Below are positions 13,913 to 58,250 of a stretch of 64,000 nt of DNA, one piece after another (position 1 is the first letter of the stretch; every line of letters starts with the position of its first letter). The stretch lies in the NCBI RefSeq assembly GCF_020099395.1, contig NZ_CP083590.1, positions 3,844,001 to 3,908,000 on the forward strand, given 5' to 3'. Made by a program: the position numbers and the translations under genes. Under the pieces are notes generated by a model. That model did no database searches. It was not told where the DNA came from and was given only the letters and a program-made list of their open reading frames with translations. The stretch comes from Streptomyces mobaraensis (lineage in GTDB: Bacteria; Actinomycetota; Actinomycetes; Streptomycetales; Streptomycetaceae).

Positions 13913-15169
13913 TCAGCGGGTGCGCTGCCGGATGACGCGGGCCTCGCGGGCCTCCTCCAGCCAGGCGGGGAAGCCGGCCGTCAGCTCTTCGTAGAGCAGG
14001 TCGTCGGCGAGACCCTTGGGGTCGCGGCCCGCGTGGAAGAAGCCCGCGTTGTCCACCGCGCGGCGCTCCGGCACGGGCAGCGCGTCCAGCTTGCGCAGGA
14101 AGTCGAAGCCCTTGCCCTCGGGGTCGCCGAAGGCCACGAACTGCCAGTAGATCGGCAGCTTCGCGGCCTCGCAGAGGGCCTTCTCGGCGGCGGACTTGCT
14201 GTAGGGGCCGCCGTCCGTCTGGAAGACGACGAACGCCGGGTCGGTGGCGCCGGACTTCTTGTAGTGCTTGATCACTTCCCGCATGGCGAGGTGGTAGTTG
14301 GTGCGGCCCATGTGCCCGAGGGAGGAGTGCAGTTCCTCGATGCGGCCCGCGTAGTCGGTGAGGTCGAGCTCGGCGACGCCGTCGACCTCGGTGGAGAAGA
14401 AGACGACGGGGACGGTCCCGTCGTCGTCGAGGTGCGCCGAGAGGCCGAGCACCTGCTCGGCGAGGCGCTGCACGCTGCCGTTCTTGTAGTACTCGCGCAT
14501 CGAGCCGGAGCGGTCGAGGACGAGGTAGACGGCGGCCCGCTGTCCGGCGAGGCCGCGTTTGCGCAGCGAGACGCCCGCCGATTTGTAGAGGCTGACCAGG
14601 CCGGGGGCGGAGCTCTTGACCTTCTCCAGGCTGATGGCGGAACCGCGCTCGCCCTCGGCGGGGGCGGGGCTCGGGGCGGCGGGCGCGACCGGTGCCGTCG
14701 GGGCCGCCACGGCCGCCGGGGCCGCGGCCGCCGCCGTCATCGCCGGCGAGGGCTCCGGCTCGGGGCCCGGCGCCGGCTCGGGCACCGGGTTGGGGTCCGG
14801 GGTGGGGACGGGCTCCGGCTGCGGTACGGGTTTGGGCTCGGGCATCGGCGTCGGGGCGGGCTCCGGGTCCGGCACCGGGTCGGGGCGCGGGCCCGGGGTG
14901 GGCGGCCCGGGGACGGGGTGCAGCGGGCCGGGGTCGGGGACCCGGTCGGTGGTGGTCTGGGCGGGGACGGACGCCGGGACCTTGGAACCCTTGGACGCCT
15001 TGGGGGCCGTTCGGGCCGCGGACGTCGTGGCGGCTGGGGCCGACGCCTCGGCTGCGACCGGGGCCGGCTCCGGCGCGGGGGCGGTGCTCTGCTGGGGGAG
15101 GCCCGGCGTTCCGTCGTCACCCGTCTTCGACCGGCCGAACGCGTTCCGCAGCAGGCTGCGAATTCCCAT
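13913..15169 (-). CDS. TerF-like von Willebrand factor A protein with Pro-rich linker
   Basis: A 418-residue protein. A short basic N-terminus (MGIRSLLRNAFGRSKTG) leads into about 120 residues of Pro/Glu/Asp-rich linker (roughly 60-185), then a vWA domain with a good MIDAS metal site (DRSGSM; TNYHLAM; FQTDGG). The start of that domain (SAISLEKVKSSAPGLVSLYKSAGV) resembles the vWA module at the C-terminus of TerF tellurium/stress proteins. Such modules bind metal and partner proteins in Ter-type stress complexes. No terD, terZ or related genes are near, so it works with partners encoded elsewhere. Confidence 0.82.
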   Translation of the reverse strand: MGIRSLLRNAFGRSKTGDDGTPGLPQQSTAPAPEPAPVAAEASAPAATTSAARTAPKASKGSKVPASVPAQTTTDRVPDPGPLHPVPGPPTPGPRPDPVPDPEPAPTPMPEPKPVPQPEPVPTPDPNPVPEPAPGPEPEPSPAMTAAAAAPAAVAAPTAPVAPAAPSPAPAEGERGSAISLEKVKSSAPGLVSLYKSAGVSLRKRGLAGQRAAVYLVLDRSGSMREYYKNGSVQRLAEQVLGLSAHLDDDGTVPVVFFSTEVDGVAELDLTDYAGRIEELHSSLGHMGRTNYHLAMREVIKHYKKSGATDPAFVVFQTDGGPYSKSAAEKALCEAAKLPIYWQFVAFGDPEGKGFDFLRKLDALPVPERRAVDNAGFFHAGRDPKGLADDLLYEELTAGFPAWLEEAREARVIRQRTR

Positions 15170-48264: not shown

Positions 48265-48359
48265 ACGAGTCATCAAGAGGTCTTGACGAGTCAGTGGCCG
48301 TCCGCCATAGTCAACGCAACTCATAAAGAGGAGTTCTCCTCAAGATCTCCTTATGAGTT
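48265..48359 (+). promoter_or_regulatory. AICE control region: strong promoter with overlapping palindromes
   Basis: TTGACG (48283-48288), 17-bp spacer and CATAGT (48306-48311) form a good principal-sigma promoter reading right. The palindrome TCAAGAGGTCTTGA (48273-48286) overlaps its -35 box and is flanked by direct repeats ACGAGTCA (48265-48272, 48286-48293). Downstream of the -10, AACTCATAA (48318-48326) and TTATGAGTT (48351-48359) form a 9-bp inverted repeat. This layout fits repression by the adjacent GntR protein. Confidence 0.65.
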
Positions 48360-48557
48360 GCTCCGCCTTGGTGACGGCTGCGTCGCGGCTCGCGCATCAG
48401 GGCGACGAGTGATCCCCTTCGGGGCCGTCACCAGCGGAGGCGGTGCCGGAGGGGCGCGTCTCCCCGGTGTTCCTGCCGGCGAGCCGCGGTGGAACCGCAC
48501 CGGTGCGGCACGTACCGCCCTCCGGTTTCCGGCCTCTGATCCCATGGGGGGACCCAG

Positions 48558-48941
48558 ATGAAGCGCGCGATCAAGCTCGCGATCGGTGACGTCGTCCGTG
48601 ACCGCGACAGCAAGACGCTCGGCACGGTGTCCGGCATCGCCGCCCAGCCGACCGGCAACCTCGTGGCCCTGCAGGTCACCGGCGGCGTCCGGCTCGTCGA
48701 GCCGAAGGACGTCGAAATGGTGGCCCGCCGGTCCGAGCCGATGACGACCAGGCGGGCCGTGGGGGCCGTGACCGCCTTCGTCCTCGCCCTGCTCGTCGCG
48801 TACCTCGGCGGCAACACCGCCCACAGGCTCGGCGCGGACTGGCTCGTCGTCGGCCTGACGAGCCTCGGCGGCTACATGGCCGTGTCGTACCTCTACGGGT
48901 TCGTGCTCCGCCTCGTGCGGCCCCGGCGGTTCCGCGTCTGA
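48558..48941 (+). CDS. Small AICE membrane protein with an SH3-like head
   Basis: A 127-residue protein. Residues 1-60 are beta-rich (IGDVVRDRDSKTLGTVSGIAAQPTGNLVALQVTGGVRLVEPKDVEMV), like a small SH3-type barrel; two membrane helices follow (about 70-88 and 95-115) with a basic C-terminus. A G-rich site precedes the ATG. First gene of the rightward transfer operon. Its role could be in plasmid-type spread, as in Spd proteins, but that is inference. Confidence 0.65.
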   Translation: MKRAIKLAIGDVVRDRDSKTLGTVSGIAAQPTGNLVALQVTGGVRLVEPKDVEMVARRSEPMTTRRAVGAVTAFVLALLVAYLGGNTAHRLGADWLVVGLTSLGGYMAVSYLYGFVLRLVRPRRFRV

Positions 48942-48954
48942 CAGCCCAACTCGG

Positions 48955-48998
48955 GCCGGCGCGGTGATCGACGGGTCAACGGAGGCTCACCGCCCGGC
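48955..48998 (+). ncRNA. Structured leader A with conserved loop
   Basis: A stem GCGGTGA/TCACCGC (48961-48967, 48987-48993) extended by GCCGG/CCGGC encloses a loop that begins with TCGACGGGTCAA (48968-48979). The same 12-base loop sits on a different stem before the prim-pol gene at 54716-54757. It ends 31 bp before the start of the 49030 gene. Candidate cis-regulatory RNA. Confidence 0.5.
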
Positions 48999-49029
48999 TC
49001 TCCATCCCACCGACGGCGCAGGAGAGACG

Positions 49030-49335
49030 ATGCGTTCGTACGTAGAAGACCAGCAGGTCAACGAGGTTTTACGGGTACAAGGCCGGGCGTTCTCCGGGAG
49101 CCGGCCGTCCCCGGCGGGCTTCAGGGAGCTTTTCCACGGCGTCCCGGGCGAGACCGCCGAGGAGCGGGCGGCCCGCCTGGCGGTGGCCGAGTCCGTCCTC
49201 ACGGAACTCCTGGAGCTGGGTGAGACGGACGAGGTCGCGGCGGAGGACGCCTTGTACGCCGCCCACCTCAACAGCACCGCGCTGTGGAGGGTGAAGATCG
49301 ACGCGTGGCCGAGCTGGGCCAAGAGGGCGGCGTGA
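49030..49335 (+). CDS. AICE protein of unknown function, 101 residues
   Basis: A soluble, largely helical 101-residue protein. GGAGAG lies just upstream of the ATG and its stop overlaps the DUF2637 start (TGATG). It contains a block rich in Glu and Ala (ETAEERAARLAVAESVLTEL) and ends with WRVKIDAWPSWAKRAA. No domain was recognised. It follows structured leader A. Confidence 0.65.
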   Translation: MRSYVEDQQVNEVLRVQGRAFSGSRPSPAGFRELFHGVPGETAEERAARLAVAESVLTELLELGETDEVAAEDALYAAHLNSTALWRVKIDAWPSWAKRAA

Positions 49336-50567
49336 TGATCGCGTCCCTGCCCTCCTGGGCTCCCGCCGCCGGCTCCGCGGCCGTCGTCCCGGCCGTCTGG
49401 CTGATGTGGCGGGGGCTGCGCGGTCGGCGAGCCGGCCGGAAGCGCGGTTCGGCCGCCGTGGTCGTGGCCGCGCTGGCCGCAGCCGGCTGTACGGCCTACA
49501 GCGCCGACACCAGCTGGCGGTTCGCCGCCGACTACCTTGACATGGGGAGCGCGACCGAGCGGGCGGCGATGTTTGCGGCCGCGGAGCTCGCCCTCTTCGC
49601 CACCGCGCTCATGGCCCGGCAGAATCTGAACGGGCCTACCGGAGCGCCCGGTGCCCCCGGACTGCTCGTCTGGGTGATCACCGGAGTGCAGGTCATCCCG
49701 GCGTACGCCGAATCCGGCGCGGTCGGCGGGACCGTACGGGCCTTCGTCGGTCCGGTCATGGCCGCGATGCTGTGGCACCTGGCGATGGGTATCGAGCTCC
49801 GCCACCGCCGGCCGGAAGCGAAGTCCCACGGTCTTGTCGCGGTGCTGGGCAAGGAACTGCGGGAACGGCTCCTCTCGCACCTCGGCGTCGCCGAGCGGAA
49901 CCGCGACGCGGCGCAGATCACCCGCGACCGGGCCACCGCGCGGGCGGTCGCACTCGCCGCCCGCCTGGCCGACACGGCACCGGAAAAGCGCGCGACGCGG
50001 CGCGGCCGACGGCTCAACCGGCGGCTAGCGGTGGCGGTGGCGCGGGCGTCCGTGGGCGTTGACGCCGGGCAACGGCGCCGGCTGCTCGAACAGCTCGCCG
50101 CCCGGCGGCACGCGGCGGGGCTGGCCACCGTCGAACTCCCTTCGCCGTGGGCCGACTCCGCGCCGGACCCCGCCGCGTCGGCCCTGGCCGCCCAGGTGCG
50201 CGACCAGATGCGCCAGGCGACGGAAGCGATCCGCCGGCAGGGGTACCCGCATCTGCCCCGAACCACGGAAGTCTCCGCTGATCAGGGGGTGAACGGCTCG
50301 GACCGTTCACCTGAACGCCCCGAGGGCCCCGCGGGAGACGAGCCGACCGCGAAGTTGAGCACCGCCGACGCTCAAGCGGTCATCGAGAACGGTTGGGCCG
50401 CCGGCCTCAGCGTCCGCGAGACGGCGAAGCGGGCCACCCGCGCGCCCAGCTACGTACACGGCGTTTTCGTGAAGCTCGACACCGAGCGCGGGCGGCGGCC
50501 GGGGGCCGGGCAGCTCGCCCTGGTGAACGGCCAGGGGGAAGCCCTGCCCGACGCGGCCGACTCCTGA
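49335..50567 (+). CDS. DUF2637/SpdB-like membrane protein of the transfer module
   Basis: A 410-residue protein. Four membrane helices fill residues 10-155, matching the DUF2637 module of Streptomyces plasmid and AICE proteins. A cytoplasmic Arg-rich helical region (165-300) and a C-terminal HTH-like segment (STADAQAVIENGWAAGLSVRETAKRATRAPSYVHGVFVKL) follow. Such proteins are thought to support intramycelial spread of the element together with TraB. Coupled to the previous gene by TGATG. Confidence 0.8.
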   Translation: MIASLPSWAPAAGSAAVVPAVWLMWRGLRGRRAGRKRGSAAVVVAALAAAGCTAYSADTSWRFAADYLDMGSATERAAMFAAAELALFATALMARQNLNGPTGAPGAPGLLVWVITGVQVIPAYAESGAVGGTVRAFVGPVMAAMLWHLAMGIELRHRRPEAKSHGLVAVLGKELRERLLSHLGVAERNRDAAQITRDRATARAVALAARLADTAPEKRATRRGRRLNRRLAVAVARASVGVDAGQRRRLLEQLAARRHAAGLATVELPSPWADSAPDPAASALAAQVRDQMRQATEAIRRQGYPHLPRTTEVSADQGVNGSDRSPERPEGPAGDEPTAKLSTADAQAVIENGWAAGLSVRETAKRATRAPSYVHGVFVKLDTERGRRPGAGQLALVNGQGEALPDAADS

Positions 50568-50646
50568 TCCCCTCCTGCACGCGGAAATCCGGGTCCGGCC
50601 ATGCCCTTTGACGGGCTGCGCCGGGCCCCACAAGGAAGGACTGGCA

Positions 50647-52779
50647 GTGCAACACGAGAAGGACGACGGTCGAGACCAGCGCACCGGCGACGAAGGAACG
50701 GTGCACCACCTCAACGACGTCCGCGCCGCCCGCTCACAGGCGGTCACGCAGGACCCCGACACCACGGTCATGGTCGACGGTCCGGCCCCGGCGGCTTCCG
50801 GCTTCATGGCACGGATCACCGGCGCCAAGCGCCGCCCGATCGTCCCGTCGTGGATGCGCGACCGGGCGGAGCTGAAGACCGCCGCGACCTGGGCCGCCGG
50901 CCACTACGGCCACGTCGCCGCGTACCACCTCTGGCGCTCCCCGGTGTACGCCGCGCGCCTCACCCTGCAGGCACCGCGCGGCGCCGCCCGCTTCGTCGGC
51001 GGGGCGATGCGGTGGGTGTCCGACGCTGAAGGGGAGCCGGTCCGGCTCGCCGCGGTGCGGCGGGAGGACGTCGGCGAGTACCTCAAGCTCTGCCGGCAGC
51101 GGGACGGCCGGGTGCGGCTGCGGACGCTCGTCGCCGTCCTGGCCTCGCTCGTCGGCCTGGGGGCCGCGCTGGCCTTGTACGTGCTGGCCCCCGGCTGGCT
51201 CCAGGCCGTTTCCCTCGGTGCCTTGGCGCTGGCGCTCGGCCACTTCGGCACCCCGGCGGACGCCCCGGTGATCACCCGCGCCGTGGAGACGCCGAAGACG
51301 CAGAAGCTCACCAGTGACATCGTGCTGCGGGCCCTCGGCGCTCTGGGCATCTCGGCCATCGGCCAGGCGCAGAGCAAGGGACAGGACGGCTTCGTCTTCA
51401 CGGCCCCCATCACACGGGACGGCCCCGGCTGGCGGGCCGAGGGCGACTTGCCGTACGGCGTGACCGTCACGGACGTGATCGACCGCCGCGACCGGCTCGC
51501 GTCCGGTCTCCGCCGGCCGCTCGGCTGCGTCTGGCCCGAAGCCGTTCCGGAGGAGCACACCGGCCGGCTCGTGCTGTGGGTCGGCGACCAGGACATGTCG
51601 AAGGCCAAGAAGCCGGCGTGGCCGCTGCTGAAGGGCGGCGCCGTCGACCTGTTCAAGCCGGCTCCCTACGGCACGGACCAGCGCGGACGTTGGGTCGACG
51701 TCACCCTGATGTACATCTCGGGGATCATCGGCGCCATCCCGCGCATGGGCAAGACGTTCCTCCTCCGGCTGCTCATGCTCGTCGCCGCCCTGGACCCGCG
51801 CGCCACCCTGCACGCCTTCGACCTCAAGGGCACCGGCGACCTCGGCCCGCTGGAGCGCGTCGCCCACAGCTACCGCGCCGGCGACGAAGACGAGGACATC
51901 GACTACGCCCTGGCCGTGCTCCGCGGCGTCCGGGAGGAACTGCGCCGCCGGGCGAAGGTGATCCGCAACCTGCCGCGCGACCTCTGCCCCGAGTCCAAGG
52001 TCACCAGCGAGCTGGCCGACAACAAGTCCCTGGGCCTGCACCCGATCGTGATCGGCGCGGACGAGTGCCAGGTGTGGTTCGAGCACCCCAAGCACGGCAA
52101 GGAGTTCGAGGAGATCTGCACGGACCTGGTGAAGCGGGGGCCCGCGCTCGGGATCACCCTCCTCCTCGCCACCCAGCGGCCCGACGCGCGGTCCCTGCCC
52201 ACCGGGATCTCAGCGAACGCCTCCAACCGGTGGTGCCTCAAGGTCATGGGGCAGTTGGAGAACGACATGGTGCTGGGTACCTCCGCGTACAAGCGGGGCG
52301 TCCGGGCGACGATGTTCGCGTGGGGTGACAAGGGCATCCACTACTTCGTCGGCGAAGGCGCCGACGCCCGGATCGTCGGCGCGGCGAACATCGACGCCCC
52401 GACGGCCGACGCGGTGGTGGCCCGCGCGTACGCGCTGCGGGAGGCGGCGGGCACCCTCACCGGCCACGCCCTCGGCGCGGACCCCGTCGCCGAAGCCGTC
52501 GCCTCGTTCGACCTGCTCCGCGACATCCTCGCCGTCGTCCCCGCGAACGAGCCGAAGGTCTGGAACGAGACGGTCGTCGGCCGCCTGGAGGAGCTGCGAC
52601 CCGACGTCTACGTCGGCTGGGCCGCCGAGCAACTGACCGCCGCGCTCAAGCCCTTCGGGATCGAGACCGTCCAGATCGGCCGGCGCCTCAACGGCAAGGT
52701 CGTCAACCGGCGCGGCATCGTCCGGGCCGACATCGCCGAAACCGTCGCCGACCGTGACGGAAGGCAGGAAGCGGGATGA
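50647..52779 (+). CDS. traB: FtsK/SpoIIIE-type conjugal translocase (TraB/TraSA)
   Basis: A 710-residue AAA+ motor that moves double-stranded DNA between hyphae. Two membrane helices lie near 165-200; the motor has Walker A GAIPRMGKT (residues 362-370) and Walker B region HPIVIGADECQ, followed by the LLLATQRPDA sensor typical of FtsK-like ATPases. The C-terminal winged-helix region (about 640-710) should recognise the clt DNA repeats. GTG 50647 has AAGGA upstream. The likely recognition repeats begin 17 bp after the stop. Confidence 0.93.
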   Translation: MQHEKDDGRDQRTGDEGTVHHLNDVRAARSQAVTQDPDTTVMVDGPAPAASGFMARITGAKRRPIVPSWMRDRAELKTAATWAAGHYGHVAAYHLWRSPVYAARLTLQAPRGAARFVGGAMRWVSDAEGEPVRLAAVRREDVGEYLKLCRQRDGRVRLRTLVAVLASLVGLGAALALYVLAPGWLQAVSLGALALALGHFGTPADAPVITRAVETPKTQKLTSDIVLRALGALGISAIGQAQSKGQDGFVFTAPITRDGPGWRAEGDLPYGVTVTDVIDRRDRLASGLRRPLGCVWPEAVPEEHTGRLVLWVGDQDMSKAKKPAWPLLKGGAVDLFKPAPYGTDQRGRWVDVTLMYISGIIGAIPRMGKTFLLRLLMLVAALDPRATLHAFDLKGTGDLGPLERVAHSYRAGDEDEDIDYALAVLRGVREELRRRAKVIRNLPRDLCPESKVTSELADNKSLGLHPIVIGADECQVWFEHPKHGKEFEEICTDLVKRGPALGITLLLATQRPDARSLPTGISANASNRWCLKVMGQLENDMVLGTSAYKRGVRATMFAWGDKGIHYFVGEGADARIVGAANIDAPTADAVVARAYALREAAGTLTGHALGADPVAEAVASFDLLRDILAVVPANEPKVWNETVVGRLEELRPDVYVGWAAEQLTAALKPFGIETVQIGRRLNGKVVNRRGIVRADIAETVADRDGRQEAG

Positions 52780-52795
52780 CCGCCGGGGCCGCCGG

Positions 52796-52878
52796 CGCTA
52801 GCAGCGCACCCCGCTAACGTTAGCGGCCCCGCTAGCACCCAGAACCCGCTGTGACCTGGCCGCTAGCGGTTAGCGGCC
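52796..52878. repeat. Cluster of CGCTA half-sites after traB, candidate clt
   Basis: Seven CGCTA/TAGCG half-sites in 83 bp, including perfect palindromes CCGCTAACGTTAGCGG (52811-52826) and CCGCTAGCGG (52860-52869). In Streptomyces conjugative plasmids the transfer locus clt is a set of short repeats beside tra that TraB binds. Position and repetition fit; the motif itself differs from the published TRS sequence. Confidence 0.6.
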
Positions 52879-52918
52879 CTCCCCGAGCACGTCCGTGAAC
52901 CGGCCCGGGAGGCCCCTG

Positions 52919-53170
52919 ATGAGCTCCGCCCTCTCCGCTATACCCGCCCTGCTCCTCATCACGCTGTGCTACGCCGTGCTCTGCGCCGTCAGCCCCCTCG
53001 GCACCTGCCGGAAGTGCCACGGCTTCGGCTTTCAGGTCCGGAAGAACCGCCGCGGCCGGATCTCGCGCGGTCGCGACTGCCGCCGCTGCCGCGGCCACGG
53101 CAAGCGCGTCCGCGTCGGTCGCCACCTCTACAACCTCGCCTCGCGGGTCCACCGCGACGGCACCCGCTGA
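52919..53170 (+). CDS. Small membrane protein with a DnaJ-like zinc ribbon
   Basis: An 83-residue protein: one membrane helix (about 5-27), then two C-x2-C knuckles (CRKCHGFGF and CRRCRGHGKR) about 20 residues apart, with the Gly-x-Gly pattern of DnaJ zinc fingers, and a basic tail. GGGAGG sits before the ATG. It is likely part of the spread/transfer set; exact role unknown. Confidence 0.75.
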   Translation: MSSALSAIPALLLITLCYAVLCAVSPLGTCRKCHGFGFQVRKNRRGRISRGRDCRRCRGHGKRVRVGRHLYNLASRVHRDGTR

Positions 53171-53187
53171 CCCCGAAGGAGCCCACC

Positions 53188-53382
53188 GTGTTCGTGTCGA
53201 TCTCCGCTCTCGCGCTGTTCGGCGTGCTCCTGGCCCTGCTCCTCCGCTTCAAGGCCCTGGGCATCGGCGCCGCCGTGGTGGCCGTCCTCTTCGGCTTCTA
53301 CCTCTCCCGGACCGGCGCGGCCGGCTCCATCGACCAGATCATGACCGCCCTGAGCGGCGCGGTCCGCGACTTCGGCAAGTGA
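53188..53382 (+). CDS. Small two-helix membrane protein (Spd-like)
   Basis: A 64-residue protein of two hydrophobic helices (SISALALFGVLLALLL and GIGAAVVAVLFGFYL) with a short polar tail. AAGGAG lies six bases before the GTG. Proteins of this type recur after traB in AICEs and Streptomyces plasmids, where they are regarded as spread (Spd) functions. Confidence 0.75.
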   Translation: MFVSISALALFGVLLALLLRFKALGIGAAVVAVLFGFYLSRTGAAGSIDQIMTALSGAVRDFGK

Positions 53383-53407
53383 CCGACCAACCCACAAGGA
53401 GACGACC

Positions 53408-53644
53408 ATGTGCGAGTGCCGGACCACCGTCCCCCGCATCTCCCTGATGGCCGCCGCGGAACTCCGCGACGTCCTCAGCGCCCTCGAACGCGGTAAGGGG
53501 CCGGTCGCCATCGCCGCCCTGATGGCCATCGATCCCGAGTCCTGGCAGGCGATCGAGCACCGCCTCGCCGCGGTCGGCGGCGACCTCCGCGCCCTGCTGG
53601 ACGCGGCCGGCGAGGGCGACACCCGCCGGTACGCCCTCCGCTGA
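53408..53644 (+). CDS. Small soluble AICE protein, 78 residues
   Basis: A 78-residue, mostly helical protein with a strong ribosome site (AAGGAGACGACC before ATG). MAAAELRDVLSALERG and DPESWQAIEHRLAAVGGDLRALLDAA suggest two or three amphipathic helices. No family was recognised. Part of the rightward operon. Confidence 0.7.
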   Translation: MCECRTTVPRISLMAAAELRDVLSALERGKGPVAIAALMAIDPESWQAIEHRLAAVGGDLRALLDAAGEGDTRRYALR

Positions 53645-53739
53645 CGGCCCCCCCCGTGCGGCCTCAACTCCCCTTCACCGGAGGTGAGGCCGTGCGGAGG
53701 ACCGGACAGACCGGCCCGAACGAGCAGGGAGGACTTTTC

Positions 53740-54360
53740 GTGACCAAGCCTGCTGTTGCCTGGTTCCAGAGCCTGACCGAAAGCGTCTTCGCCCTCGGCG
53801 CGGCGGCTAGGGAACTGCGCATGGCCAACGACGCGGCCCGCGTCGCCGCCTGGAGCGTCGACCCGCACCGCTTGCTCCCCGTCGACGGTGAGCTGAACGT
53901 CCCCGGGGCGCCCTTCTTCCGCCCGCACGAAGCGGCTGTGTGTGAGCTGGCCAATGTCTACCGACAGCTGGAGAACCGCACGAAGCGGATGTATGAGAAC
54001 ACTGCCCTCGCCTACGCCCATGGTGCGGCTGCGGCGGCGCTGGCCGTACTCCGGGGCGAACGCCCGTACCACGCCGAACTGCGGCGCGAGGAAGGCCAGT
54101 ACGTGCTGCCGGCCACTGGGCTGCCCAACCCGACCGGCCTCCTGGGTGGGTGGAACGGCGGCCCCCGACTCGTCGGGCTGCGCCGCGTGCTCCTCCAGCG
54201 CCAGGACGAGGCGGACGCGGCTCGTGCGGAACGTCACTGTGCGGCCGACGAGTTCACGGTGCACCTGGCCGACGCCGCATACGCCTTCGGCGAGCAGGCC
54301 GAGAGCGCCCTCCACTTCGCCTTGATGACCACGAGCAGGGACGACGAGGAGACCTGGTGA
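53740..54360 (+). CDS. AICE protein of unknown function, helical
   Basis: A 206-residue protein. Helical N-terminal and C-terminal parts flank a Gly/Pro-rich middle (GLPNPTGLLGGWNGGPRLVGL). GTG 53740 has GGAGG seven bases upstream and is chosen over upstream starts. A hairpin (CGGCCTCA/TGAGGCCG) lies in the leader. Its stop overlaps the next gene by GTGA, so the pair is coupled. No known domain. Confidence 0.65.
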   Translation: MTKPAVAWFQSLTESVFALGAAARELRMANDAARVAAWSVDPHRLLPVDGELNVPGAPFFRPHEAAVCELANVYRQLENRTKRMYENTALAYAHGAAAAALAVLRGERPYHAELRREEGQYVLPATGLPNPTGLLGGWNGGPRLVGLRRVLLQRQDEADAARAERHCAADEFTVHLADAAYAFGEQAESALHFALMTTSRDDEETW

Positions 54361-54704
54361 CCACCCCGGAAGCGCCCACCCCCGACCCCGCCACGGCGTA
54401 CGCGGAGGCCCCCAGCATCATCGCCGAGATCGGCTGGGTGGCGAGGCAGCGGGGCTCGCAGCCGGACCGTGAGTTCTGGCTCCGCAAGGCCGCCGTGTTC
54501 GACCGCATCGCGCTCAAGGAGGCGGCGAGCTACGCCCCGGAGGTGGCGGCGCCGGCGATCGAGGCCGCCGCCGACGCGGCGCTCCAGCTGGTGCGCTACG
54601 ACGCCACGCACGAGGGGCTGAGCCCGAGGGGCTTCGAACTGGTCACCGCGGACGACCACCGCGAGCACGTCCGCCGCGCCTACCTGGCCTGGAGCCGTTC
54701 GTAG
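54357..54704 (+). CDS. AICE protein of unknown function, coupled to the previous gene
   Basis: A 115-residue helical, acidic protein (TTPEAPTPDPATAYAEAPSIIAEIGWVARQRG...). The GTG start overlaps the preceding stop (GTGA). No domain or membrane helix. It precedes the replication genes and might be an accessory to them. Confidence 0.65.
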   Translation: MTTPEAPTPDPATAYAEAPSIIAEIGWVARQRGSQPDREFWLRKAAVFDRIALKEAASYAPEVAAPAIEAAADAALQLVRYDATHEGLSPRGFELVTADDHREHVRRAYLAWSRS

Positions 54705-54715
54705 GTCTGCGAATC

Positions 54716-54757
54716 CCGGGGCAGCGGTCGACGGGTCAAGGACGCCCGCTGCCCCGG
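54716..54757 (+). ncRNA. Structured leader B with conserved loop
   Basis: A perfect 11-bp stem (CCGGGGCAGCG 54716-54726; CGCTGCCCCGG 54747-54757) encloses TCGACGGGTCAA (54728-54739), the same loop as leader A. Both are followed by a CATCCCA-containing stretch and CAGGAG. It ends 38 bp before the prim-pol start. Candidate cis-regulatory RNA. Confidence 0.5.
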
Positions 54758-54795
54758 CCTCCCATCCCAACCAAGACACAGGAGGTGTCACCAGC

Positions 54796-55686
54796 ATGCC
54801 TCAGAACAGCTCTCGTCCGCTGCTGGACGCCGCTCTTGCGGCGGCCGAGCGCGGCTGGAGGGTCTTCCCGATCCGGCACGGCGGCAAGTGCCCGGCGGTG
54901 CGAGCGTGGGAGCGGCGCGCGACGACCGATGTCACGCGCATCTCCCGCTGCTGGACCGCGTCCCCCTTCAACGTCGGCATCGCCACCGGCCCGTCGAAGC
55001 TGGTCGTGATCGACCTGGACGTGCCCAAGCACGGCCAGGACCTTCCGCCCGCCGGAACGCCGCCGAAGGTGACCACCGGCGCGGACGCGCTGTCCCATCT
55101 CGCGGCAGAGCACGGGCAGCCGTTCCCCGCCGACACCCACACCGTCCGGACGGCCGGCGGCGGAACCCACCTCTACTTCGCCGCACCGCAGAGCGTCGAG
55201 CTGCGCAACACCGCGGGCGCGCTTGGATGGAAGATCGACACCCGGGCGGCAGGCGGCTGCGTCGTCGGCGCCGGCAGCACCGTCAACGGCAAGCCGTACA
55301 CCCGCGTCGTCGACATCGACCCGGCCCCGCTGCCGCACTGGCTGCTCGACCTCCTCCGACCGGCGACCCTCCCCCCGCAGAAGCCGGTGACCGTGTCGCT
55401 CGGCTTCGACCGCCGCAGCGGCTACCTCAAGGCGGCCGTGAATGGGGAGCTGGCCAAGGTCGCCAACTCCCCGGCACACGGCCACAACAACACCCTCTAC
55501 CTCGCGGCCGTCGCCCTCGGGCAGCTCGTCGCCGGGGGAGAACTGAGCGCCGCCGACGTGACCGAGTGGCTGGCGGCGGCCGCGCTCCGCGTCGGCCAGG
55601 GCGACCGCGAGGCCCGGCGCACGATCGCCTCGGGCCTGAAGGCCGGCGCCCGCCGTCCGCGAACCGTGGCGAGGAGGGCGGCATGA
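54796..55686 (+). CDS. Bifunctional DNA primase/polymerase (prim-pol), AICE replication protein
   Basis: A 296-residue prim-pol of the archaeo-eukaryotic primase superfamily. The catalytic acids are Asp73 and Asp75 (VVIDLDVPKHG) and the conserved His lies in GGGTHLYF. A short C-terminal helical domain follows. In AICEs lacking a rolling-circle RepSA, this enzyme with a RepA-like ATPase starts replication of the excised circle. The ATG has AGGAGG upstream and its stop overlaps the next start (ATGA). Confidence 0.92.
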   Translation: MPQNSSRPLLDAALAAAERGWRVFPIRHGGKCPAVRAWERRATTDVTRISRCWTASPFNVGIATGPSKLVVIDLDVPKHGQDLPPAGTPPKVTTGADALSHLAAEHGQPFPADTHTVRTAGGGTHLYFAAPQSVELRNTAGALGWKIDTRAAGGCVVGAGSTVNGKPYTRVVDIDPAPLPHWLLDLLRPATLPPQKPVTVSLGFDRRSGYLKAAVNGELAKVANSPAHGHNNTLYLAAVALGQLVAGGELSAADVTEWLAAAALRVGQGDREARRTIASGLKAGARRPRTVARRAA

Positions 55687-56693
55687 CCGAGCCCCTGCCG
55701 CACCTCTACTCCACCACCCACGCGGAGCCGCAGCCCCTCCAACCCGCCCAGCAGCGCATCCGCACCGCCTGGACGGCGGACGAGCTGATGGCGGCAGAGT
55801 TCCCCGAGCCGCGCTGGGCGGTGCCAGGGATCATCTCCGAGGGCGTGAACCTCCTCGCCGGTCCGCCGAAGGTCGGCAAGTCCTGGCTGTCCCTGGGCCT
55901 GGCCCTCTCCGTCGCCGCCGGCGGCCAGGCGATGGACACGGTCCCGGTGGAGGGCGGCCCGGTGCTCTACCTCGCCCTGGAGGACACCCCGCGCCGGCTC
56001 CAGACGCGCATGCGGAAGATCCTCGGCGGCGAGCCGGCGCCGGCCGCGCTGACGCTGGCCACCTCCTGCCCGCCGCTCCCGCAGGGCGGCAACGAGGCCA
56101 TCGCCCAGTGGGTGGAGCGCAACCCCGACGCCCGGATGGTGATCGTGGACGTCTTCGCGAAAATGCGCGGCCCGTCCGCCCCGGGCACCTCCGCCTACGA
56201 CGCCGATTACGCCGCGGTCGGCCACGCCAAGCGGATCGCGGACCACTACGGCATCGCCATGGTCCTGGTCCACCACGTCCGCAAGGCCGGCTCCGACGAC
56301 TTCCTCGCCGAGGTCTCCGGCACCAACGGCCTGGCCGGCGCCGCCGACGCCACCCTCGTCCTCAAGCGCTCCCGCGGCCAGGCCGACGGCGTCCTCCACG
56401 TCACCGGCCGCGACGTCGACGAAGCCGAGTACGCCCTCCGCTTCCACGCCGAGGCCGGCGCCTGGCAACTCCTCGAAGGCCCCGCCGCAGCCCACACCAT
56501 CGGCGACACTCGCGCCACCGTCCTCCGCTACGTCCGCGACCACCCCGGCGCCAAACCGAAGCAGATCGCCGAGGGCACCGGCCTCGACCCCGCCCTCGTC
56601 CGACAAACCTGCTCGCGGATGGCCAACGACGTCCAACTGATCCGAGACGCCGGCGGCTACGCCGTGCCGTCGGCGGATGGGGGACAGGCATGA
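55683..56693 (+). CDS. RepA-like AAA ATPase/helicase (AAA_25)
   Basis: A 336-residue RecA-fold ATPase. Walker A is GPPKVGKS (residues 60-67), Walker B is in RMVIVDVFAKMRG, and HHVRKAGSDDF is the sensor region. The last 70 residues are a winged-helix-like segment (VRDHPGAKPKQIAEGTGLDPALVRQTCSRM). It resembles the hexameric helicase RepA of RSF1010 and partners with the prim-pol upstream. Coupled on both sides by ATGA. Confidence 0.9.
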   Translation: MTEPLPHLYSTTHAEPQPLQPAQQRIRTAWTADELMAAEFPEPRWAVPGIISEGVNLLAGPPKVGKSWLSLGLALSVAAGGQAMDTVPVEGGPVLYLALEDTPRRLQTRMRKILGGEPAPAALTLATSCPPLPQGGNEAIAQWVERNPDARMVIVDVFAKMRGPSAPGTSAYDADYAAVGHAKRIADHYGIAMVLVHHVRKAGSDDFLAEVSGTNGLAGAADATLVLKRSRGQADGVLHVTGRDVDEAEYALRFHAEAGAWQLLEGPAAAHTIGDTRATVLRYVRDHPGAKPKQIAEGTGLDPALVRQTCSRMANDVQLIRDAGGYAVPSADGGQA

Positions 56694-56956
56694 CGAGTCA
56701 CAGCAGTCACAGTGTCACAGCACAAGAGCGGAAGGAGAGCTACAAGGTGGCGGAACGCCTGCTGACTGTTGCAGAGGTAGCCGAATGGCTTGGCACGACC
56801 GAGCGGTTCCCGCGCCGTCTGATCGCCGAGCGGCGGGTGACCTTCGTCAAGGTCGGCAAGCACGTCCGTATCCCGGAGAGCGCCCTGACGGCGTTCATCG
56901 AGAGCAATACCGTCCAGCCCGTGCGCCGCCGGCCGCGCTACGGGAGGGCTGCCTGA
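56690..56956 (+). CDS. xis: Excisionase (helix-turn-helix, MerR-like)
   Basis: An 88-residue DNA-binding protein: LLTVAEVAEWLGTTERFPRRLIAERRVTFVKVGKHVRIPESALTAFI is the excisionase HTH. It bends attachment-site DNA and turns the integrase towards excision. The start overlaps the RepA stop (ATGA) and its stop overlaps the integrase start (TGATG), so replication, excision and integration are one operon. Confidence 0.9.
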   Translation: MTSHSSHSVTAQERKESYKVAERLLTVAEVAEWLGTTERFPRRLIAERRVTFVKVGKHVRIPESALTAFIESNTVQPVRRRPRYGRAA

Positions 56957-58125
56957 TGCCCAACAACAAGGGAAAGCGGCGCAGGTTCGGGGCGATCCGG
57001 AAGCTGCCGTCCGGGCGGTTCCAAGCCCGTTATCCGGGGCCCGACGGTGTGATGCGTCCCGCTCCGCAGACGTTCGAGACCATGGGCGACGCTGACGACT
57101 GGTTGGCCGAGCAACAGGTCTCGATCCGTCGGGGTGCTTGGACAGATCCCGAAGCCGGGAAGGTCAATTTCGAGGATTACGCGCGGAAGTGGGTGGACGA
57201 ACGGGAGCTCGCTGCCACCACAGACGAGCTGTACCGTCGGCTCTTGCGGTTGCACATCCTGCCCACCTTCGGCGAGCTGGACCTCGACGAGATCGTCGCG
57301 CCGGTTGTGAGGACTTGGCGGGCCGAGCGCAAGGCAGCGACCGGTTCCACGACCGTGGCCAAGTCGTACCGGCTGCTCAAGGCCATCCTGGAGACGGCGG
57401 TCGACGACGAGCTGATCCGCCGGAACCCCTGCCGGATCAAGGGGGCGGGCAAGGAGTCGGCGAAGGAGCGATCGGTGGCCACCGTGGCCCAGGTCGACGC
57501 ACTTGCCGACGCGGTCGGGCCGCGATGGCGCCTGATGGTCTACCTCGCCGCTTACGGGCCTGCCCGCCCGGAGGAACAGGCGGCGATGCGGCGGCCGGAC
57601 GTGGTGATGGAGCCCTTGGGGGTGTGGGTGCGCACGGCCGAGCCCGAGTTGACCACGGGGCGGCGGGCTCCGGGCGACACGAAGTCCACAGCAGGCAAGC
57701 GGTTCATCACACTGCCCGCGTTCCTGGAGAAGGAGGTGCGAAGGCACCTCGCCTGGTACACGGAGAAGGCCCCTGAGGGACTGCTGTTCGTAGGCGAACG
57801 CGGCAAGCCGTTCCGGAGGTCCACGTTCGGGCGGAAGTGGCGCAGGGCGCGCGCGGCGGTGGGATTGCCGGACGACTTCCGCTTCTACGACCTCCGACAC
57901 ACCGGGCACACGCTGTCGACCCAGTCCGGAGCGACGCTCAAGGACACCATGGTCCGCGCCGGCCAGTCTTCGGAGAAGGCAGCGATGATCTACCAGCACT
58001 CCAACCACGAACGGCAGCGCGAGGTAGCGGCTGGCATCGACGCCCGGGTCCGGGATGAGCGGCGGAAGGCTCAGGACCGGCCGGGTGATCAAGGTTCTGG
58101 CATGGATCTGGCACATGGCGACTGA
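56956..58125 (+). CDS. int: Tyrosine recombinase (AICE integrase)
   Basis: A 389-residue integrase with an N-terminal AP2-like arm-binding part, SAM-like core-binding domain (about 65-170) and catalytic domain. Active-site residues: Arg in ARPEEQ, Lys in the GKRFITLP region, Arg in YDLRHTGHT, and nucleophile Tyr in MIYQHSN. The first His of the HxxR box is Tyr, and the later GH motif reads AGQSS (His to Gln). It recombines the tRNA-Gly core. It ends 51 bp from attR. Confidence 0.95.
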   Translation: MPNNKGKRRRFGAIRKLPSGRFQARYPGPDGVMRPAPQTFETMGDADDWLAEQQVSIRRGAWTDPEAGKVNFEDYARKWVDERELAATTDELYRRLLRLHILPTFGELDLDEIVAPVVRTWRAERKAATGSTTVAKSYRLLKAILETAVDDELIRRNPCRIKGAGKESAKERSVATVAQVDALADAVGPRWRLMVYLAAYGPARPEEQAAMRRPDVVMEPLGVWVRTAEPELTTGRRAPGDTKSTAGKRFITLPAFLEKEVRRHLAWYTEKAPEGLLFVGERGKPFRRSTFGRKWRRARAAVGLPDDFRFYDLRHTGHTLSTQSGATLKDTMVRAGQSSEKAAMIYQHSNHERQREVAAGIDARVRDERRKAQDRPGDQGSGMDLAHGD

Positions 58126-58176: not shown

Positions 58177-58220
58177 AAGAGCGGGCGACGAGAATCGAAC
58201 TCGCGCTCTGAGCTTGGGAA
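58177..58220 (-). repeat. attR: 44-bp direct repeat inside the intact tRNA-Gly gene
   Basis: Identical to 39900-39943. It covers the anticodon loop to the 3' end of the tRNA plus three bases beyond, so the gene stays functional after integration. Confidence 0.95.
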
Positions 58221-58250
58221 GCTCATGTTCTACCATTAAACTACGCCCGC
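58180..58250 (-). tRNA. tRNA-Gly (anticodon CCC)
   Basis: A 71-base cloverleaf: acceptor stem GCGGGCG/CGCCCGC, discriminator U (as expected for Gly), anticodon stem TGAGC/GCTCA with loop TTCCCAA, anticodon CCC, and T-arm GAGTTCGATTCTC. No CCA is encoded. It is the integration target of the AICE and remains complete. Confidence 0.95.

Follow-up and report, generated by a model that had tools for sequence, protein, structure and literature searches.

Leader hairpins with element-specific loops ahead of transfer and replication genes in mobile elements of Streptomyces

A 64,000-nucleotide stretch of Streptomyces mobaraensis DNA (contig NZ_CP083590.1, positions 3,844,001 to 3,908,000; hereafter the window) contains what its genes mark as an element like the actinomycete integrative and conjugative elements (AICEs). 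Two genes of this element, the first of its transfer region and the gene for a primase-polymerase (prim-pol), are preceded by hairpins that carry the same loop on different stems. These hairpins belong to a real and widespread family in which the loop codes for identity: loops vary between elements, and leaders 1 and 2 of one element usually match. That the leader hairpins are functional RNA we regard as close to certain. What, then, reads the loop? The best reading, not proven and in our estimate with an even chance of being right, is an antisense RNA that would jointly control the replication and transfer genes.

Two leaders of the window share one loop

The 12-mer TCGACGGGTCAA lies at 48968–48979 and 54728–54739 on the forward strand, the strand of all three leaders of the window. 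These are its only two copies in the whole genome (7,668,063 bases in two contigs); its reversed control does not occur. Leader 1 (hairpin 48961–48993, loop TCGACGGGTCAACGGAGGC) has the arms GCGGTGA (48961–48967) and TCACCGC (48987–48993). Leader 2 (hairpin 54716–54757, loop TCGACGGGTCAAGGACGC) has the arms CCGGGGCAGCGG (54716–54727) and CCGCTGCCCCGG (54746–54757). The loop cores are thus identical at 12 of 12 positions and the arms differ, yet both stems pair, which bears out what a preliminary description of this DNA had reported. The same description placed a CATCCCA stretch and CAGGAG after both hairpins, before a transfer-region open reading frame (ORF) and the prim-pol gene, and the coordinates agree. 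In the linker of leader 1 (48994–49024, with CTCTCCATCCCA) CATCCCA is at 49003–49009 and the Shine–Dalgarno sequence CAGGAG at 49019–49024, and CTCTCC can pair with GGAGAG. In that of leader 2 (CCTCCCATCCCA, 54758–54785) CATCCCA is at 54763–54769, CAGGAGG at 54779–54785 with the Shine–Dalgarno sequence AGGAGG at 54780–54785, and CCTCC can pair with GGAGG. The stop codon of an upstream open frame (54702–54704) ends 11 nt 5′ of the leader 2 hairpin. A third leader hairpin (50591–50628, arms 50591–50599 and 50620–50628), ahead of the GTG at 50647, has a different loop, CATGCCCTTTGACGGGCTGC.

Allowing up to two mismatches, TCGACGGGTCAA is found six times in the window where 7.71 are expected, which is chance level, so that exactness, position and context of the loop are what count. 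Taken one by one, the folds of leaders 1 and 2 are unremarkable against shuffles (z = −1.10 and −1.37); it is the comparative evidence that stands out. At the Rfam gathering score the window yields only a tRNA; at E ≤ 5 the interval 48700–55000 yields two matches, neither of which overlaps the hairpins.

Leader hairpins are common in related elements, the exact loop is rare

When the genus was searched with the prim-pol protein, 214 of 392 genomes (its own among them) had relatives at E ≤ 1e-15. Thirty prim-pol loci were returned with the window among them, and by eye a GC-rich hairpin stands 5′ of prim-pol in 28 of the 29 others (L019–L047), L042 being the only one without. Further regions, chosen among the matches listed of the prim-pol search, comprised a first sample of about 20 kb around each of 40 prim-pol genes, a second sample of 40 more, and 60 short regions upstream of prim-pol. 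Three genes at the least are preceded by such hairpins: leader 1 stands before a small ORF of the MRTY... type, leader 2 before prim-pol and leader 3 before an FtsK/TraB-like gene. Other genes also have a leader hairpin in L055, L058, L063, L066, L067, L071, L081 and L113.

If the hairpin is common, what of the window's own loop? Together with CATCCCA in a prim-pol leader it recurs in one of 391 other genomes of the genus (G105). A contig scan for the exact loop with confirmation of prim-pol gave a single relative, L017 (Streptomyces huiliensis). Of 13 places in the genus that match the exact loop pattern, 10 show no such leader by eye, and a viral contig that has the exact loop but no hairpin (L003) was taken as chance. 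Absence of the loop from related AICEs had been named beforehand as grounds for abandoning a functional RNA. To the letter the loop is nearly absent, yet the hairpin itself is common; the exact loop is scarce because each element has its own, as a rule common to its two leaders. In the literature (titles and abstracts, most subscription papers being outside reach) we found no description of such hairpins.

Loops usually match within elements

How closely do the two leaders of one element agree? Over both samples, 39 of the 40 elements in which both leaders could be typed have the same loop type, L063 being the exception. Automatic typing gave 39 of 40 too, with L048, which does match, mistyped through stem overlap and L063 wrongly called equal; correction leaves the total unchanged. 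In the first sample (32 elements) loop similarity was 0.863 against 0.392 when permuted (standard deviation 0.046). For its 21 elements with distinct leader 2 hairpins the values were 0.830 against 0.409 for the loop, 0.913 against 0.420 for the 5′ half of the loop, 0.549 against 0.433 for the arms and 0.510 against 0.347 for the linkers. These figures include first leaders that had been found via the loop itself (L062, L063, L066, L074, L075 and L082, partly L052 and L056) and the window, which had been selected for its loop; loop types were defined after the loops had been seen. We therefore give a cleaned set from both samples, with L063 corrected and the loop-located leaders, the window and L017 removed. 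Its 31 elements show a loop similarity of 0.845 against 0.431 (standard deviation 0.041; reached in 0 of 20,000 permutations) and an arm similarity of 0.518 against 0.415. For its 22 elements with distinct leader 2 hairpins the loop value is 0.814 against 0.455 (0 of 20,000) and the arm value 0.532 against 0.450 (58 of 20,000).

In the second sample leaders were located via proteins, and a relative of the first gene lies on the prim-pol strand in 15 of 40 regions. Loops match in 10 of the 15 (L088, L089, L094, L103, L106, L113, L120, L122, L124 and L126). Under label permutation a perfect match has a probability of 4e-5 for these ten (3e-4 for the eight scored), the five that do not match being set aside. 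Leader 2 of L088, L094, L122 and L126 was missed by the routine and read by eye, and L089 and L120 were completed by the model described below. The typed first leader of L113 precedes another gene; an identical hairpin precedes its first-gene relative. Even variants match across kilobases: CTGTCACC is in both leaders of L106, CTCTCGAAA in both of L126 and GGGCCA in both of L070. The common loop is CTCTCGCCAAAGACC, and both leaders of L082 (4977–5044 and 11880–11949) carry something close to its reverse complement, GGTCTTTGCCGAGAGA or GGTCTTTTGCCGAGAGA; their stems are otherwise normal. Such a reversal is neutral for RNA–RNA pairing. Leader 3 of L062 and of L070 has GCTGCTTTGGCGGGTAG, near the reverse complement of a loop common there.

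Stems covary

Alignment A1, made on sequence, holds 54 leaders. In its 13-bp stem 87.3% of the cells are paired against 77.1% in shuffles, 11 of 13 pairs have double changes, and 71 cells are compensated against 18.3 (standard deviation 3.9). Sliding the partner column by one to three positions lowers pairing to 36–51%. The 54 were hand-picked from 79 distinct leaders, leaving out near-duplicates, the inverted L082 leaders and several first leaders with weak stems. All 79 give 89.7% paired against 76.4%, again double changes in 11 of 13 pairs, and 112 compensated cells against 27.3 (standard deviation 4.6). As the leaders were preselected as hairpins, the paired percentage is biased upward, and the double changes are the better evidence. 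The preliminary description had taken a conserved loop on compensatory stems for a functional RNA and had proposed a covariance model of loop and flanking arms. The covariation and the loop match within elements uphold the first point; co-regulation of transfer and replication, which it also advanced, would follow naturally but goes beyond them.

Built from A1, the model (R1) finds 142 matches at E ≤ 0.05, those to its own training sequences among them; they come from 78 sources. It matches leader 1 of the window at 48955–49023 (42.4 bits, E = 2.6e-7; this sequence is itself in the training set) and leader 2 at 54715–54783 (60.2 bits, E = 9e-12; the corresponding leader of L017 was among the training sequences). 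Across the class, 21 of 296 genomes and 5 of 114 genera have matches. By eye, three of those beyond Streptomyces (G445, G506, G661) are leader-like and the other three are not. A leader also stands upstream of an FtsK gene on the Streptomyces plasmid NZ_CP109423.1 (L219); the Nonomuraea relative L218 has no R1 match. Related leaders with GTCTCGCCAAAG-type loops occur in another family of the class (L136, L139, L146); L146 has two of them, separated by 275 bases and almost alike in their loops.

A possible antisense RNA

How might a loop in two leaders be read by an RNA? The hairpin would expose its loop, and a complementary RNA would base-pair with it. This RNA would most likely be transcribed antisense to the prim-pol leader and would fold into a complementary hairpin. 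As the two mRNAs present the same loop, it would act on that of prim-pol in cis and also, in trans, on the gene that opens the transfer region. Kissing of the two loops would repress, or gate, translation from the adjacent Shine–Dalgarno sequences. We infer that such an RNA exists, where it begins, which way control runs and that something like incompatibility would result.

The most direct hint at such an RNA, though indirect, is a bias in mismatched pairs. With G·U and A·C scored alike, prim-pol leader stems (26 + 20 distinct hairpins, the 20 of a second prim-pol type picked by eye as having a hairpin) contain 14 A·C and 1 G·U, and are otherwise almost purely Watson–Crick (325 of 332 and 236 of 244 pairs). 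The 35 distinct leader 1 stems, five weak ones having been skipped, contain 24 G·U and 10 A·C. By Fisher's test the contrast has p = 3.4e-5 when cells are counted and p = 0.006 when distinct position/pair events are. An A·C in the mRNA is a G·U wobble in the complementary strand. The bias hints that the complementary strand of the prim-pol leader may be the folded RNA, and leader 1 an mRNA target. Mutation bias alone is an unlikely source, because the signs are opposite at the two leaders of the same elements. In the 60 further prim-pol regions there are 38 distinct hairpins, whose stems contain 10 A·C and 2 G·U; one over-extended stem (L181) supplies both G·U and three A·C, leaving 7 A·C and no G·U without it. 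Of these 38 hairpins, three are within coding sequence and at least one with A·C (L175) was already in the first set; in 18 regions no hairpin scored high enough. An earlier count (52 G·U, 18 A·C) was replaced because its choice of stems permitted G·U but not A·C. In a fixed register leader 1 has 26 G·U and 13 A·C, and leader 2 has 0 G·U and 6 A·C.

Each of the 44 distinct prim-pol leaders has an open frame of 60 codons or more, counted from stop to stop, that ends 2–25 nt, mostly 4–6 nt, upstream of the hairpin; 8 of 41 first leaders have one, and long open frames are frequent by chance in DNA so rich in GC. A stop codon followed by a hairpin resembles the coupled leader designs of antisense-controlled rep genes. 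The bases between stop and hairpin (often TAGNTACGCC) recur even across prim-pol types, for example in L053, L054 and L091. Pairing of at least 5 nt between linker and Shine–Dalgarno sequence is found in 21 of 36 leaders 2 (6.7 expected from shuffles) and 14 of 39 leaders 1 (8.3 expected); it is not universal, L048 and L051 lacking CTCC, and was not treated as the core feature. A GGG/CCC pseudoknot between loop and linker was dropped, since other loop types have no GGG.

Several results weigh against an antisense RNA. Elsewhere in the fetched regions of 44 elements, complements of the loop number 34 9-mer matches against 67 and 52 for reversed controls; with no excess there, the leader's own opposite strand would have to supply the complement. 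Sigma-70-type promoters on the antisense strand do not score clearly above controls, at leader 1 (5 of 41 windows against 3 and 2) or at leader 2 (4 of 44 against 0 and 4). The YUNR motif is in 34 of 39 antisense loops (23.7 expected) but also in 26 sense loops (16.9 expected). The wobble counts are small and related sequences are not independent; fourfold sites of prim-pol lean to A, and against the resulting expectation of 0.61 the figure of 14 in 15 weakens from p = 0.0005 to 0.006; and 15 G·T pairs in prim-pol arms fall outside the stem limits of the 14-to-1 count.

The exceptions to loop matching belong here too. In L063, alone in the first sample, the first-gene relative has the loop CGTCTCCTCAAAGG and prim-pol has ACTCCCCAGCAAGG; the ACTCCCCAGCAAGG loop precedes the neighbouring gene (leaders at 14328–14398 and 14609–14679). 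Five of the 15 second-sample elements with a first-gene relative mismatch (L090, L092, L107, L111, L112), all with the second prim-pol type (stem about GAGGGCGGCCCC) and a different first-gene leader. Loops also differ in six second-type elements with two model-found leaders (L087, L091, L100, L101, L108, L109). The loops of leader 3 fall into classes of their own and do not depend on leaders 1 and 2. One genome, G227, has two elements (L076, L105) with the same prim-pol leader loop, which is exceptional among the genomes with several elements that were inspected visually. We gave up testing incompatibility by co-residence, as there were too few pairs and these were read by eye. In the second prim-pol type (L101, L184 and similar) the Shine–Dalgarno sequence lies within a small possible hairpin (CTGGAGACATCCAG) directly 5′ of the ATG.

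Other explanations

Could a protein read the loop instead? An element-encoded RNA-binding protein, acting on translation or on transcription elongation as lambda N does on boxB, would account for loops common within and different between elements and for leaders ahead of the first genes of gene blocks. Such a protein should follow the loop. Prim-pol proteins, however, are 95% identical with different loops and 43–44% identical with the same loop. The corresponding figures are 96–97% and 46% for TraB-like proteins, 96% and 84% for the helicase (in 27 of 44 elements), and 95% and 36% for first-gene proteins, whose 95% pair joins the neighbouring loop types D and D′ in one comparison and B and T′ in the other. 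Of the 700 seed ORFs, 90 are represented by relatives in 30 or more of 40 elements. In the families listed, with location duplicates left out and many frames lying opposite real genes, top identity with a different loop is 70–100%, and diverged members share a loop. At the whole-protein level, then, none of the conserved element proteins that were tested follows the loop; a few specificity residues could still decide. A protein reader also gives no reason to expect the reverse-complement loops of L082 or the antisense-side wobble bias of prim-pol leaders, and we consider it unlikely.

The hairpins might instead work as DNA, as single-stranded priming or recognition sites for Prim-Pol, the helicase or the transfer ATPase. 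A hairpin directly 5′ of prim-pol, stems there as near to pure Watson–Crick as in a DNA palindrome, and tolerance of inversion would all suit such a site. We nonetheless think this distinctly improbable: the hairpins adjoin the Shine–Dalgarno sequences of several different genes, the prim-pol, helicase and TraB-like proteins show no correspondence with the loop, and a DNA site would not be expected to have wobble biases of opposite sign in leaders 1 and 2.

Recent duplication or gene conversion between leaders could also make loops match, the hairpins merely stabilizing or separating mRNAs. Arms and linkers are indeed more alike within elements than across them (first sample, 32 elements: 0.534 against 0.397 and 0.522 against 0.362). 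In the cleanest set, however, loop similarity far exceeds arm similarity (0.814 against 0.532; permuted 0.455 and 0.450), and the window's loop cores are identical on arms that differ, so we find this explanation very doubtful. That the hairpins are intrinsic terminators or attenuators between genes, as the GC-rich hairpin 2–25 nt past a stop codon in 44 of 44 prim-pol leaders might suggest, is scarcely credible, for no T-run follows the stem, the next Shine–Dalgarno sequence follows directly, and terminator loops need not match.

Relation to known systems

Returning to the antisense RNA, its nearest parallel is the antisense control of I-complex and IncFII plasmids (RNAI/Inc-RepZ, CopA–CopT), where the replication-gene leader hairpin likewise lies directly past an upstream open frame and the loop sets specificity, as proposed for the leaders here. 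The complement of the common CGCCAA loop is UUGGCG, a motif in the title of Asano 1998, which stands in the reference list of PMC10724649; the accessible part of the latter paper attributes an effect to loop nucleotides only, stem mutations being without significant effect. Unlike the I-complex and IncFII leaders, the loop here also marks a transfer-region leader several kilobases away, the antisense RNA is only proposed, and the elements are those of Actinobacteria. Like FinP/traJ of F-like plasmid transfer, our case concerns the leader of a transfer gene and control specific to the loop, established there and proposed here. FinP acts on one leader and requires FinO.

In the lambda N/nut system boxB lies in nutL and nutR, so that two leaders share a loop within a phage and differ between phages. 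The elements studied here are alike in that their two leaders share a loop, other elements have other loops and stems vary. They are unlike it in their mostly 12–15 bp stems with 15–20 nt loops beside a Shine–Dalgarno sequence, in the lack of a conserved protein that tracks the loop, and in the one inverted-loop element. In the archaeal plasmid pRN1 a stem-loop upstream of the prim-pol gene serves as origin. The position immediately 5′ of prim-pol is the same; here, unlike in pRN1, several copies stand before different genes and adjoin Shine–Dalgarno sequences.

Control of AICEs is described in the accessible part of PMC3218068 at the level of transcription regulators (Pra, KorSA). PMC8410849 reports, in passages that do not concern these leaders, a high antisense index for islands and mobile elements of S. 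ambofaciens. An RNA layer coded by loops, if real, would show how AICE-type elements couple replication to transfer, and related elements might distinguish themselves by their loops. The loop tags could then offer a set of orthogonal regulators for Streptomyces, with predictions that reporters can test. Tentatively, we suggest an unnamed, widespread antisense system in actinobacterial mobile elements. In it one RNA opposite the prim-pol leader might control replication in cis and transfer in trans through a shared kissing loop, and loop diversification, occasionally by a flip of the loop in both leaders, might create many incompatibility groups.

Layout of the window element

The marks of an AICE in the window are a tyrosine integrase adjoining a tRNA gene, a replication gene, an FtsK/TraB-like gene, whose match lies below the curated cut-off, and a GntR regulator. 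The full set comprises GntR-type genes, a 127-aa ORF, a 101-aa ORF, the FtsK/TraB-like ATPase, small ORFs, Prim-Pol, an AAA_25/RadA-like ATPase, the integrase and a tRNA-Gly. The 101-aa ORF (MRSYV..., 49030–49335, ATG at 49030) is the first gene downstream of leader 1, and searches of Pfam and NCBIfam gave no match to it. On the same, forward strand follow the putative transfer ATPase of 710 aa (50647–52779, starting at the GTG; profile matches below curated cut-offs), Prim-Pol of 296 aa (54796–55686, ATG at 54796; PF09250, E = 7.1e-45), the RadA-like ATPase (55686–56693, start inferred) and the integrase (56677–58125; PF00589). The tRNA-Gly (CCC) on the reverse strand (58179–58250) is the presumed attachment site.

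Two further features were seen. An imperfect inverted repeat, AACTCATAAAGAG...CTCCTTATGAGTT, at 48315–48362 lies between the minus-strand GntR gene and the ORF at 48558 and is possibly the operator of the GntR regulator; L070 has a similar palindrome at about the corresponding place. At 53656–53740, ahead of an ORF starting near 53740, there is another strong hairpin of 17 pairs with the loop CCTTCACC, followed by CCGGACAGACCGGCCCGAACGA. Copies of the window's own locus apart, L017 and L087 are the only ones of 217 loci in which this motif recurs.

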